A stretch of DNA of 25,637 nt from a virus: positions 1-25,637 of the IMG/VR virus record IMGVR_UViG_3300044845_000013; one strand, written 5' to 3'. Shown one piece after another: positions 1,944 through 18,031 of this stretch (the first letter of the stretch is position 1; each line of letters begins with the position of its first letter). The notes under the pieces are model-generated. The model ran no database searches. It saw nothing but the letters and a program-made list of their open reading frames with translations, and had not been told where the DNA came from. A program made the translations under genes and the position numbers.

Positions 1944-3967
1944 AATTCAGACCCTTGTTTAATTTTATTGATTTTACTTTGCGTGTTTGTAATGTCGCTT
2001 TCGCTTACAATGGCTTGCACTACTATGTTTTGGTTTGTGCTTACGCTTTGCGGTTGTCCTACCGTGTTTAACTGGTTTCCTTGTCCAAACATTTGAACCG
2101 CTGGTGTTAATGGGCTAACGCTTGTAGACGATCCACTAGGCGAACCACCACCGCCACCACTTACCGTACCGCTAGGGTTTGTAAGAAGTGTTTTTGCTTT
2201 AGCTATGTTCGTGGTAATTTGTAGAATACCCGACGCGAATTGTGCAATACCAGCCGCACCCGCTGACACCCCGTTGAAAGGGTTTGACTGCGAGGCCGCA
2301 ACTAGAGCCGAAATAGCTTTTGCCGTGTCGATACCTATCTGGATTAATGCGCTAGCCTTGTTGAAGTTTTCTAGTTTCTTTTGGTCTTTAATAAAGGCGT
2401 TCCCTAGTGCGCCTATGCCGTTTACCACGTCACTGGCTAAAGTTAGTTTAGCGTCGCGTTCGTTTTTAGCGTCTTCAATTTTCTTTAGGCTAGCTTCTTT
2501 TTCGTCTTTTGCTACTTTGTCGTTAATAGCTTTAATTTCTGCCGCGCGTTTTTCCTCTATCGCTTTGGTGTCCATACCGTATTGTTCGGCTAGTGCTATA
2601 AGTTCAAAATACTTTGTTTGTACGGCGTCTATTTCGCGTTGTGCGTCCGTCATTTTCAACTGGCGCACTGTTTCCTCAAAGTCTTCTTGTGCTTGTAGTT
2701 GTACGTTTTCGTTGTCTTTGATTGCTTTGTTTATGTCCGCTTGTCGTTTTGCGGCAGCGTCCGCTTGCACTTTTGCGCTTGCATCTAGTTCCGCTTGTTT
2801 TTGGCTTTCGTATAGCTTAGTAAGTTCGACTTTTTCTTTGCCCGTAAGGTTTTCGTTTTTCTTTACGTCTTCAATTAGGCGTCTATATTTCTCGTTTGTC
2901 GTAGCTATTTCGCGTTCGTTTTCGTCGGCGATCAAAGCTATTTCTATGTCCTTAATTGTACGCGCTGCGTCTAGTCTATTCTTAGCGTAGGCCTTTGCGT
3001 TTTCCACGCGTTTAGCGTTAGCCTCTTTGTTCTTTTGTTCTTGTTCGGCTGCGTCTTGAATTTCTAGCAATTGGCGTTCTTTACGTCCCTCGCTTAATAT
3101 CTTTTTTTCAGCAGCAATTTGTTCGCGTAATTTCTTACGGCGTTCTAGGTTGTCTTTAGATGCTATCTTTTGTAGTGCTGCGTATTCCTTTTGTTGGTCA
3201 CTTAGACGACCTTGCGCCTCTTTGCTTACTGCCTTTGACTTAGCCACCTCTAGATCCGTGGTATCTTTACCCGCTGCCTTTGCTTTGGCTATTTCTATGT
3301 CGTATGCGTCACTAACTTTCTCGGCGCGTTTCTTAGAACTTTCGGCAGCCTTTTCGTTAGCCTTCGCCATTTTCTTTGCGTTTTCTTCGGCGGCGTAATT
3401 GGTTAAGCCCATTTCATCCGTTAGCTTTTTAAAGCCGTCTATAATAGCGTTTATGGGCGCCATTAAAACGTCGAAAGCTTTTTGTAATAAGCCAATTTTA
3501 CCTAGAAAAACAACTATACCAGCGACTACCGCGGCAATAACGGCAGCAATGAGAAACAACGGGTTTGCAAGTATTTGAACACCTAGCTTAACAAAAGCAC
3601 CGCCCAAGGTTTTAACCGTTCCCGTAATGCCTTTAATGGCACCCGAAATGTCGGCTTTGCCAATAGAACCTAAGTTCTTTGCGAATACTTGCGCCTTTTC
3701 ATTTGCGCCCTCAAAGTCTAAGCTTGCAAGGTCGCCACTTATTGCACTAAATGAATTACTTACCGACTCGAATTTTGAACCCGCTGTAAAAACCGCTACT
3801 TGTTCGTTGGCATCTTTTAACCTATCCGCAACCTCACCCGCTTTTTGAGCGAGTTTAGTCATTTGTTCTGGATCGGTTGCCGCGGCTATTTCAGCTTTTA
3901 ATTGCCTAAGCTCGGCCTTCATTGAGCCAATGCCCGTAAGTTTTAAAGGTATTTGTACTTCGTTCAT
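1940..3967 (-). CDS. Tail tape measure protein
   Basis: This 675-residue protein has the typical tape-measure make-up. The N-terminal 130 residues are helical. A strongly hydrophobic segment at about 137-158 (LFLIAAVIAAVVAGIVVFLG) is followed by a long Lys/Glu/Ala-rich coiled coil from about 195 to 510. A second hydrophobic, Gly/Ala-rich region lies near 520-600, then a GGGGG low-complexity stretch and a polar tail. Such proteins set tail length and can help DNA entry; at about 1.5 angstroms per residue this one would predict a tail near 100 nm. The start is preceded directly by TTAATATAGTT, shared with other tail genes. It lies after the two large tail proteins rather than before them, so the gene order is not the textbook one. 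Confidence 0.85.
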   Translation of the reverse strand: MNEVQIPLKLTGIGSMKAELRQLKAEIAAATDPEQMTKLAQKAGEVADRLKDANEQVAVFTAGSKFESVSNSFSAISGDLASLDFEGANEKAQVFAKNLGSIGKADISGAIKGITGTVKTLGGAFVKLGVQILANPLFLIAAVIAAVVAGIVVFLGKIGLLQKAFDVLMAPINAIIDGFKKLTDEMGLTNYAAEENAKKMAKANEKAAESSKKRAEKVSDAYDIEIAKAKAAGKDTTDLEVAKSKAVSKEAQGRLSDQQKEYAALQKIASKDNLERRKKLREQIAAEKKILSEGRKERQLLEIQDAAEQEQKNKEANAKRVENAKAYAKNRLDAARTIKDIEIALIADENEREIATTNEKYRRLIEDVKKNENLTGKEKVELTKLYESQKQAELDASAKVQADAAAKRQADINKAIKDNENVQLQAQEDFEETVRQLKMTDAQREIDAVQTKYFELIALAEQYGMDTKAIEEKRAAEIKAINDKVAKDEKEASLKKIEDAKNERDAKLTLASDVVNGIGALGNAFIKDQKKLENFNKASALIQIGIDTAKAISALVAASQSNPFNGVSAGAAGIAQFASGILQITTNIAKAKTLLTNPSGTVSGGGGGSPSGSSTSVSPLTPAVQMFGQGNQLNTVGQPQSVSTNQNIVVQAIVSESDITNTQSKINKIKQGSEL

Positions 3968-15928: not shown

Positions 15929-16870
15929 TTAAAAAGGTGTTTCATTAGCCAGGCGTCTAAGCTTTTCACTGGTGGTTAGTATTTCGTTTGTTTGCAGTTT
16001 GGTTTGTTGTTCGCGTGGGCGTAATTCTTTAAGCGCGTCTTTGTTTTCAATTACAAAGCCCAGGCCTTGGTTAAATTCACAAAATATAAAGTCTTCAAAC
16101 CCAGTAATTGAGCCGCCAGTTTCTTGGTCTTTAATCTTTTCGGTTGTTACTAGGGTTACGTACTTCATTGTTTCGTGTTTTACTAGCCTATGTACTACTA
16201 TCATGTCGTCGCAGCGGTTTAAGAACGCTTTACCGCCCTCTATGTGGTCTTTCATTGGCGGTTTAAGGTGGCCTTTCCACATATGGTTGTCTGGGTAAAT
16301 GTTACCACTACGTCCGCTTTCTGTATTTGGGTGCGTGTTTATGTACAAAGTCTTACCCGTTTCGTTGCAAAATTGGCGGGCGTCGTTTAGAAACTTATAA
16401 TTACCCTCGTAGCCCATTTGGCGGTCTAAGCCCGTGTAAGGGTCAATTAAACACGCGTCGGCGTCCGACTTGCGAAATAGTTCGAATAGTTCGCTAGGTT
16501 TGTAAAGCTTTGAGTTATCTATAAATTCAAAGTATTGTTCTAGGTATGCCGTGTAACTAGATATTTGGCGCTCGCTTAATTGCTTAAATGGTTTGCCCGA
16601 GTAAATTTGCACCATGTCGCGAAGAACTTGCCAGTATTGGTTTTCACCAGACCACATTACAAACTTTAATTCGTGTTTAAGTGCAAGGGTAAGAAAATAC
16701 CAATTGATCCAATAGGTTTTTCCGACGTTGTCATGTCCTAAAATGATATTTAGTTGTCTAGGCTTGTATCGCAAATAGTCGTCTAGCTTAGTGCCTATGC
16801 CTAGCCCTTGTTTTATTTTGCCGTTCTTATAGTCGAAAAGCTTTTCTAGGTGTATTCCTTTACTTAACAT
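15929..16870 (-). CDS. DnaB/Twinkle-like replicative helicase ATPase
   Basis: This 313-residue protein has Walker A GHDNVGKT at residues 45-52, a Walker B-like strand ending in ACLIDPYTGL (Asp143), and ETGKTLYINTHPN with a conserved His180 as in RecA-fold helicases. It lacks a primase or N-terminal DnaB domain, so it is a core helicase or loader ATPase. In the operon it follows the initiator that carries the candidate origin, so it probably acts at phage replication forks. The start at 16870 overlaps the initiator gene by 11 nt. Confidence 0.8.
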   Translation of the reverse strand: MLSKGIHLEKLFDYKNGKIKQGLGIGTKLDDYLRYKPRQLNIILGHDNVGKTYWINWYFLTLALKHELKFVMWSGENQYWQVLRDMVQIYSGKPFKQLSERQISSYTAYLEQYFEFIDNSKLYKPSELFELFRKSDADACLIDPYTGLDRQMGYEGNYKFLNDARQFCNETGKTLYINTHPNTESGRSGNIYPDNHMWKGHLKPPMKDHIEGGKAFLNRCDDMIVVHRLVKHETMKYVTLVTTEKIKDQETGGSITGFEDFIFCEFNQGLGFVIENKDALKELRPREQQTKLQTNEILTTSEKLRRLANETPF

Positions 16871-17480
16871 AACCTAGTTTTTTAGCTTGTTCATAAAGTG
16901 GGTCGTTTACCATTTCTATTTGTTCTTTTGGCTTTGCCCAACGTCTTACCGTAGCTTTCCAGTCTTTCATATTGTTTTTACCTACTTTCCAACCGTTGCT
17001 ATCGTAATAGTCTATAAATGTTTGGGCGTTTAGTTGTAAGTTTTGGTCTAAGCAATAGGCGTCAATTTCTTGAACACTTGGGCGTATAAATATATTTCTT
17101 TCTTTCTTTACATTCTTGTTAGTGGTCGTTTGCTGGTCGTTTGCTGGTCTCTCGTTGGTCGTTTCGCTGGTCTCTATTTGATACTTTTGGTAGTTAACTA
17201 TTTGAATAATAGTACCTTGACCGCTTGTTTTAATGGTCAATTCGTTGGTCGATTTTAGCTTATCTAGTGCGGTTCTAGTTTGACGTACACTTAACCCAAC
17301 TTCTAAAGCTAGAATGTCTCGACTTGTTAAAATAGTACCCGATTGTAATAACATACCCCTATATTTTTTTTCTTTATGGTTAGCTTTTAAAAGCAAATGA
17401 ATAAACAAACGAAATGCATTGTGGTCGTCGTACCATTCCCAGTCTAAAATTTGTCTATGTAATTTAATCCACCCGCTCAT
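16860..17480 (-). CDS. Replication initiator / replisome organiser with internal iterons
   Basis: The N-terminal 100 residues (WIKLHRQILDWEWYDDHNAFRL, LTSRDILALEVGLSVRQTRTAL) form a winged-helix DNA-binding domain of the phage replisome-organiser type. Residues 103-128 are a polar low-complexity linker, encoded by the iteron repeats. The C-terminal domain (FIDYYDSNGWKVGKNNMKDWKATVRRW) resembles the helicase-contacting part of DnaD or phage-O-like initiators. This domain order, with origin repeats encoding the linker, parallels lambda O. The gene lies behind a structured leader with its own terminator, and it overlaps the helicase gene. Confidence 0.8.
   Translation of the reverse strand: MSGWIKLHRQILDWEWYDDHNAFRLFIHLLLKANHKEKKYRGMLLQSGTILTSRDILALEVGLSVRQTRTALDKLKSTNELTIKTSGQGTIIQIVNYQKYQIETSETTNERPANDQQTTTNKNVKKERNIFIRPSVQEIDAYCLDQNLQLNAQTFIDYYDSNGWKVGKNNMKDWKATVRRWAKPKEQIEMVNDPLYEQAKKLGYVK
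17075..17250 (-). other. Candidate replication origin: iteron repeats plus AT-rich tract
   Basis: On the plus strand, five adjacent units ending in TGGTC lie at 17118-17172, two of them exact copies of GTTTGCTGGTC (17128-17138 and 17139-17149). Two further TGGTC copies lie at 17234-17238 and 17243-17250; the latter shares CGTTGGTC with unit four. The period is 10-12 nt, about one helical turn and not a codon multiple, so this is a DNA-level repeat rather than a protein repeat. Next to it is an AT-rich purine tract at about 17080-17115, as expected for an unwinding element. It encodes the initiator's linker, as in the lambda origin. Not experimentally shown. Confidence 0.65.
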
Positions 17481-17489
17481 ATTAATATT

Positions 17490-17547
17490 TTAAAATAAAA
17501 AACCCCCAAACTTCGTTGCGGCTGGACGTGCAAGTCGGTTTGAGGGT
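17490..17547 (-). terminator. Rho-independent terminator upstream of the initiator gene
   Basis: On the minus strand, a 10-bp stem (17547-17538 with 17511-17502) has a 26-nt loop and is followed by a T-rich tract ending near 17490. The stem position right before the initiator ATG suggests controlled read-through into the replication genes. Confidence 0.55.
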
Positions 17548-17587
17548 AAATAATTCCTTTTGAGTTTATGGTGTCCAGCCAACTCGT
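17495..17587 (-). ncRNA. Structured leader RNA or small RNA with intrinsic terminator
   Basis: A TATATTTG box (17598-17591) is followed by a region with two perfect or near-perfect long pairings. GGCTGGAC (17580-17573) pairs with GTCCAGCC (17527-17520) over 8 bp, with possible GTT/AAC extension. ACCCTCAAAC (17547-17538) pairs with GTTTGGGGGT (17511-17502) over 10 bp with one G-U. The second stem ends in a T-run (17507-17491 region, T-rich). The four half-stems interleave, so the RNA could be a pseudoknot or switch between forms. It ends just before the initiator ATG at 17480, so it could be an attenuating leader or a stand-alone RNA of about 90 nt. No known family recognised. Confidence 0.5.
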
Positions 17588-17590
17588 CTA

Positions 17591-17598
17591 CAAATATA
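17591..17598 (-). promoter_or_regulatory. Promoter -7 element before the structured RNA
   Basis: TATATTTG on the minus strand matches TAnnTTTG exactly and lies inside the end of the small gap after the DnaA-like gene. A clear TTTG at -33 is not visible at the usual distance (the sequence there is CAACC or CTTTTAG), so the promoter is weaker than the two consensus ones or needs an activator. Confidence 0.4.
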
Positions 17599-17602
17599 AC
17601 GT

Positions 17603-18031
17603 TTATTTTTCTAAAAGGTTGCTTTCCGCTAAAAGTTTTTCGTAAACACCTAGCTTAACACGTCGTCGAATACGTTTGAAGTCGCGAATAGTTCGGGCCT
17701 CTATAATGTCCGTTTTTAGGTCGCGTTTTTTAGCCGTGCTTTCTTCTGGAAATATCAATACGCTACCCTCTAGTTGTTGTTTGAGTTGTATAGTTTCGAA
17801 CTTGTAGTCTTCGTCGTTATAACCCATTAGGTTTTCATGCGTTTTAAGCCCATGAATTATAGTAGCGTGGTGCTTACCGAATATTTCACCAATTTGCGAA
17901 AGGCTAAAGCCGCTAGTTCTAAGTTCGTGGTATAGGAACGCGCGTTTGTAAATCAATCCGCGATCTCTACACTTGTTTGTTAAGTCGTAAGCCGCTATAA
18001 GTTCGTGAATAAGTGCTATTTTGTTTTTCAT
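17603..18031 (-). CDS. DnaA domain IV-like DNA-binding protein
   Basis: This 142-residue protein has RAFLYHELRTSGFSLSQIGEIFGKHHATIIHGLKTH at about residues 30-65 (read in pieces). It matches the helix-turn-helix and signature of DnaA domain IV, where FGKxH-(A/T)-(T)-I-I/V-H contacts the DnaA box. The ATPase domains of DnaA are absent and the C-terminal half is a basic helical region (IRDFKRIRRRVKLGVYEKL). Such stand-alone domains occur in phage replication or regulatory regions. It may bind host DnaA boxes or phage operators. It overlaps the preceding 48-residue gene by 4 nt (ATGA). Confidence 0.75.
   Translation of the reverse strand: MKNKIALIHELIAAYDLTNKCRDRGLIYKRAFLYHELRTSGFSLSQIGEIFGKHHATIIHGLKTHENLMGYNDEDYKFETIQLKQQLEGSVLIFPEESTAKKRDLKTDIIEARTIRDFKRIRRRVKLGVYEKLLAESNLLEK

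Follow-up and report, generated by a model that had tools for sequence, protein, structure and literature searches.

A conserved kissing-loop RNA, probably a terminator-bearing leader, in phages of Bacteroidota

On the minus strand of the viral DNA analysed here (the whole 25,637-nt stretch, referred to as the window), positions 17497–17598 hold a promoter box, then an RNA of about 90 nt, then an intrinsic terminator. Relatives of this element share a conserved fold, the promoter box and the terminator anatomy, and they are tightly linked to unrelated following ORFs that can move with the element. We consider it fairly probable that this is a conserved structured leader of Bacteroidota phages in which expression of the next ORF depends on read-through of the terminator and is thereby limited in cis, and probably controlled conditionally. 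The RNA is probably one not yet described: no Rfam 15 family matched the window or nine of its relatives at the gathering threshold, only sub-threshold matches being returned, and a literature search that did not extend to a 2017 survey listing 224 candidate RNAs found no description of such an element.

Results

Anatomy of the element

All features lie on the minus strand. The −7 promoter box TATATTTG (17591–17598), pointed out by an earlier sequence-only reading of this DNA, matches TAnnTTTG, which is the −7 consensus for the primary sigma factor of Bacteroidota (PMC7366714). No clear −33 element accompanies it, and none could be recognised in Flavobacterium either (PMC7366714). No antisense TAnnTTTG was found here on the opposite strand. 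The 5′ end of the RNA is predicted 5–8 nt past TANNTTTG, at about 17583–17586, and covariance model R1, described below, places the entire RNA element at 17495–17590 (91.7 bits).

The RNA starts with the 5′ arm of hairpin P1, GAGTT (17581–17585), which pairs with AACTC (17562–17566; compensatory change in 5/5 pairs) and encloses the 5′ arm of helix A, GGCTGGAC (17573–17580). An unpaired linker, AAAAGGAATTATTT (17548–17561; consensus AAAGGAATTATT), is almost invariant in the columns of our first alignment, A1. It is followed by the terminator stem P3, formed by ACCCTCAAAC (17538–17547) and GTTTGGGGGT (17502–17511) with compensatory change in 7/9 pairs. Within P3 lies P4 (TTGC, 17530–17533; GCAA, 17516–17519; compensatory change in 4/4 pairs), a stem absent from the sequence-only reading, and the P4 loop carries the 3′ arm of helix A, GTCCAGCC (17520–17527). 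The intrinsic-terminator U tract is U6 (17497–17502). The coordinates bear out the two interleaved stems proposed earlier, an 8-bp stem A and a stem B of 10 bp (P3, if its outer A-U pair is counted), in the order A5′, B5′, A3′, B3′. Helix A joins the P1 loop to the P4 loop and would make an intramolecular kissing loop.

The minimum free energy (MFE) fold of the transcript contains P1 (GAGUU/AACUC), P3 (10 bp) and P4 (UUGC/GCAA). In this fold GUCCAGCC lies in an open P4 loop, and the P1-loop sequence GGCUGGAC is free apart from a weak 3-bp pairing.

The ATG of the following gene (17478–17480) lies 16 nt past the U tract, which places the predicted terminator of P3 and U6 just before an initiator start codon, as the sequence-only reading had it. 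This ORF (16860–17480, 206 aa) encodes a DnaD-like helicase loader / replication initiator (PHROG 2514, E 7e-31). The co-directional ORF upstream (17603–18031) resembles a DnaA C-terminal HTH domain, with a sub-cut-off match to PF08299 (E 1.4e-6, 28.7 vs 31.5 bits).

Covariation supports four helices

The single sequence folds with only modest stability (z −1.57 on the RNA strand, −1.19 on the + strand), and a z of only −1.2 to −1.6 is what chance inverted repeats in AT-rich sequence might give. Comparison of relatives refutes this explanation, which we regard as scarcely credible. A search with the downstream protein yielded 80 IMG/VR loci, many with the same layout in different letters upstream of that gene. 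In A1, which comprises 21 of these loci, all four helices show compensatory change; 94.6% of cells are paired, compared with 70.0% after shuffling, and the covariation score is 0.732 versus 0.246, a value reached by 0 of 500 shuffles. We built R1 on P1, P3 and P4 only, leaving helix A and the promoter box outside the model; it gave 44 matches (E ≤ 2.7e-11) in 81 sources. A second set of 80 loci was fetched by a DNA pattern requiring no pairing, and R1 found 41 strong matches among them. Here 99.8% of cells are paired (72.9% when shuffled, 28–47% for slid structures), and the covariation score of 0.764 (0.244 shuffled) again lies beyond all 500 shuffles. Neither the pattern nor the model had included helix A, yet in this second set it is 100% paired, with compensatory change in 6/8 pairs.

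A scan of all column pairs returned exactly four covarying helices, P1, P3, P4 and A. The sequence-only reading had staked itself on covariation of its two long stems, and both covary; its suggestion of a pseudoknot holds, with the interleaved helix A covarying together with the other three. It had further proposed that the pairing of GAGTT with AACTC competes with stem A. That pairing is instead the conserved helix P1, which coexists with A. No antiterminator or fifth helix covaries in the scan, although an invariant alternative pairing would escape it. Because the scan gives four helices and no alternative, a classical switch by mutually exclusive helices is not shown. Of the features of a transcription attenuator, the element has an intrinsic terminator between promoter and ORF and shows no covarying antiterminator structure. 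The earlier idea of a replication-gene switch stands as far as the terminator adjoins the gene for a DnaD-like helicase loader, and falls short in that no alternative helix covaries.

Relatives in phages

The searches gave about 120 distinct relatives, most of them IMG/VR sequences, as well as members in cultured phages. Besides those resembling the window's RNA (type A), there is a second type, B, whose P1 loop is smaller and whose internal loop, UUAGUA/CGAA, resembles a bulged-G / loop-E module, judging by its letters. A type-B model, R2, gave 83 matches in 100 sources, 65 of them distinct. The type-B P1 and P4 loops, of about 6–8 nt, are almost wholly complementary to one another: the longest loop complement averages 5.66 nt within a molecule versus 3.42 ± 0.16 nt with permuted partners. 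Linker length did not correlate with P1+P3 length; since P1 was ill-defined in that comparison, the result hardly bears on whether pairing is intra- or intermolecular.

Three cultured phages have members: Cellulophaga phi18:3 (3073–3173; R1, E 7e-6), Croceibacter P2559S (33912–33996; R2, E 2e-10) and Flavobacterium 11b (33635–33724; R2, E 3.5e-4, with the helix pairing visible by eye). The element is therefore directly testable. Weak R2 matches in phages 6H and phi14:2 look by eye like ordinary terminators and were discarded. Under strict filters, R2 matched 1 of 296 sampled Bacteroidota genomes, that one being the genome used as centre; R1, run with the same filters and no positive control, matched none of the same 296. 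Since only the centre genome among some 300 sampled had type B, this type looks phage-borne, given the strictness of the search filters. The RNA used as a DNA-level query found no similarity among phages and plasmids, and genome contigs gave no match to a strict type-A pattern.

Further forms were seen. Two loci carry types C and D (L020, ~2700–2790; L059, ~2880–2980), which have the same anatomy with other internal loops and are not matched by R1, and L305:7502 is another variant. Six contigs carry two copies of the element (L343, L346, L358, L305, L380 and L054), and the loops differ between copies where checked.

Promoter and terminator signals

The end of TAnnTTTG lies no more than 2 nt from the model start in 57 of 58 distinct type-A RNAs, compared with 1% in shuffled flanks; part of this set was fetched via a pattern containing the box, and the protein-fetched type-A set, which did not use that pattern, shows the box as well. 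Among type-B RNAs the box is found near the model start in 34 of 64. A run of at least five U follows the stem in 58/58 type-A and 62/64 type-B RNAs. Only 4 of 122 (3/58 type A, 1/64 type B) have another TAnnTTTG within the RNA or the gap, and this scarcity implies that a separate promoter for the following ORF is generally lacking there.

The genes behind the element

All 58 type-A RNAs (median distance 17.5 nt) and 58 of 64 type-B RNAs are followed within 45 nt by the start of an ORF of at least 40 aa, whereas ordinary short-loop terminators on the same contigs have an ORF that close in 14 of 72 cases. The type-A counts for context and promoter are partly biased, because these loci were fetched via the downstream protein or via a promoter/loop pattern.

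Among the cluster representatives scanned, the first ORFs include DnaD-like and DUF6291 replication-type proteins, small ORFs and one methyltransferase; mostly behind type B come NUMOD4/HNH, GIY-YIG-type, endonuclease VII-like and homing-endonuclease-like ORFs. The downstream genes have no metabolic theme in common that would point to a riboswitch. The link to an initiator, as first proposed, is thus present in the window and does not extend to all relatives, which also precede several unrelated genes. In many phages (L006, L009, L029, L075 and others) the RNA is separated from the initiator gene by diverse small ORFs (~55–88 aa). In Croceibacter P2559S, the annotated start of CDS P2559S_48 (33955–34194; L421:956–1195) falls inside the RNA element; the true start is probably the ATG directly past the terminator.

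This range of genes bears on whether the RNA could prime replication or mark an origin ahead of the initiator. Replication initiators do follow many copies, and the window has a gene with a DnaA domain upstream of the element. However, the ORF behind a copy may also be that of an endonuclease or a methyltransferase, in some cases away from replication modules, and no DnaA-box-like TTATCCACA with at most one mismatch occurs in window positions 1–25637, where shuffles predict 4.7. We regard a replication element as very improbable.

Type B stands right before freestanding HNH/NUMOD4 or GIY-YIG-like endonuclease ORFs at L054:5792–5874, L359:3637–3719, L372:4370–4454, L320:4402–4484, L271:10611–10699 and L305:8446–8529; such pairs also occur outside replication modules. 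L359 contains about 640 nt, made up of a promoter-like box, the RNA and an HNH-type ORF, that L288 lacks. In L038 an endonuclease ORF is inserted exactly at the ATG behind an RNA that is 93% identical to that of L044, where the RNA is followed directly by the DnaD gene. The promoter, RNA and endonuclease appear to form a mobile cassette.

Discussion

We propose the following mechanism. Transcription would start from the TATATTTG box, and the nascent RNA of about 90 nt would fold hairpin P1, whose loop would capture the loop of the next hairpin, P3–P4, through the 8-bp kissing helix A. P3 with the U tract would then act as an intrinsic terminator at which most transcripts end, giving a short RNA. 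The ORF starting 10–20 nt further on would be expressed by read-through only, and the element would thereby limit, and probably conditionally control, that ORF in cis. We infer from the sequence signals that the terminator is functional and that read-through is the control point; regulation of that read-through by some phage or host factor is likewise suggested. A trans-acting factor or a state of RNA polymerase is likelier than a helix swap, because no alternative structure is encoded.

The anatomy itself does not single out a leader. A stand-alone small RNA with promoter and terminator would look the same, and by these sequence signals the element has both. Such an RNA might act in trans by binding a protein or another RNA, its 3′ end lying before a gene by happenstance; the compact fold would fit, a binding site could lie in the unpaired linker and loop nucleotides that are conserved, and some contigs carry two different copies. 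Near-obligate close spacing to an ORF and co-insertion with unrelated ORFs are, however, not expected of a purely trans-acting RNA, and we think this explanation unlikely. A leader whose read-through controls the next ORF is favoured because of the linkage in cis, the scarcity of second boxes and the movement of the element with its ORF.

A leader need not be regulated. Promoter, leader and terminator could be a fixed unit that keeps a low basal level, shields the gene from upstream transcription or stabilises the mRNA. The lack of an alternative structure agrees with this, as does the low expression plausibly needed for homing-type endonucleases and initiators, and co-directional upstream ORFs are frequent. 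Genes of this kind could also feed transcription through the element, which counts against the leader reading as a whole. On the other side, a kissing loop and conserved unpaired nucleotides seem beyond the needs of a simple terminator. We rate a fixed unit as slightly less likely even than a trans-acting RNA. That no antiterminator covaries counts against regulation as opposed to fixed attenuation.

The element can be set beside several known systems. The HK022 put RNAs are small phage RNAs with two stem-loops that affect transcription in cis, putL lying just past an early promoter (PMC9378689). Judged by their description, they resemble the element, itself a small phage RNA that would act on transcription in cis; put, however, suppresses termination far downstream and is no terminator itself, whereas a terminator forms the end of the element, which also has a kissing loop.

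Leader terminators before replication genes are found in the repR/repC leaders of pIP501/pT181 and in the P4 CI RNA, which depend on antisense RNA or alternative pairings. The element shares the leader terminator with these attenuators, but has no antisense box and no alternative helix. In phi29 pRNA, complementary loops pair between molecules and serve packaging. The element too has complementary loops, but the way they are ordered and linked allows them to pair within one molecule, and its setting is different; loop pairing between molecules is also conceivable here.

Two Rfam families share parts with type B below threshold, both with the RNA at L375:1736–1855, which resembles the 3′ hairpin of RT-14 and also TEG147. 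The last hairpin of the reverse-transcriptase-associated RNA RT-14 (RF02921) has the UAGUA/CGAA internal-loop module in common with type B; the match, to this one type-B sequence only, scores 28.3 bits versus a gathering threshold of 48.1 over the 144-nt model. In six further sources with type-B or variant RNAs RT-14 was not matched at E ≤ 1, nor did type A match it. The S. aureus small RNA TEG147 (RF03535; 20.3 bits versus a threshold of 56.1) has a hairpin with a GAGUAG/CGAAAU module and a U tract like type B, the hairpin alone being in common. A UAGUA/CGAA terminator-hairpin module may be common to several mobile-element leaders.

As a more tentative possibility, we speculate that the element belongs to a new class of portable RNA switch, a kissing-loop terminator leader, common to initiators and homing-type endonucleases, which travels with its gene and times expression by sensing a transcription factor of phage or host. 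If the leader reading is true, the element would represent an undescribed, widespread, well-conserved class of regulatory RNA in Bacteroidota phages, where the control of transcription is little known, and it would tie the control of replication genes to the spread of homing-type endonucleases.
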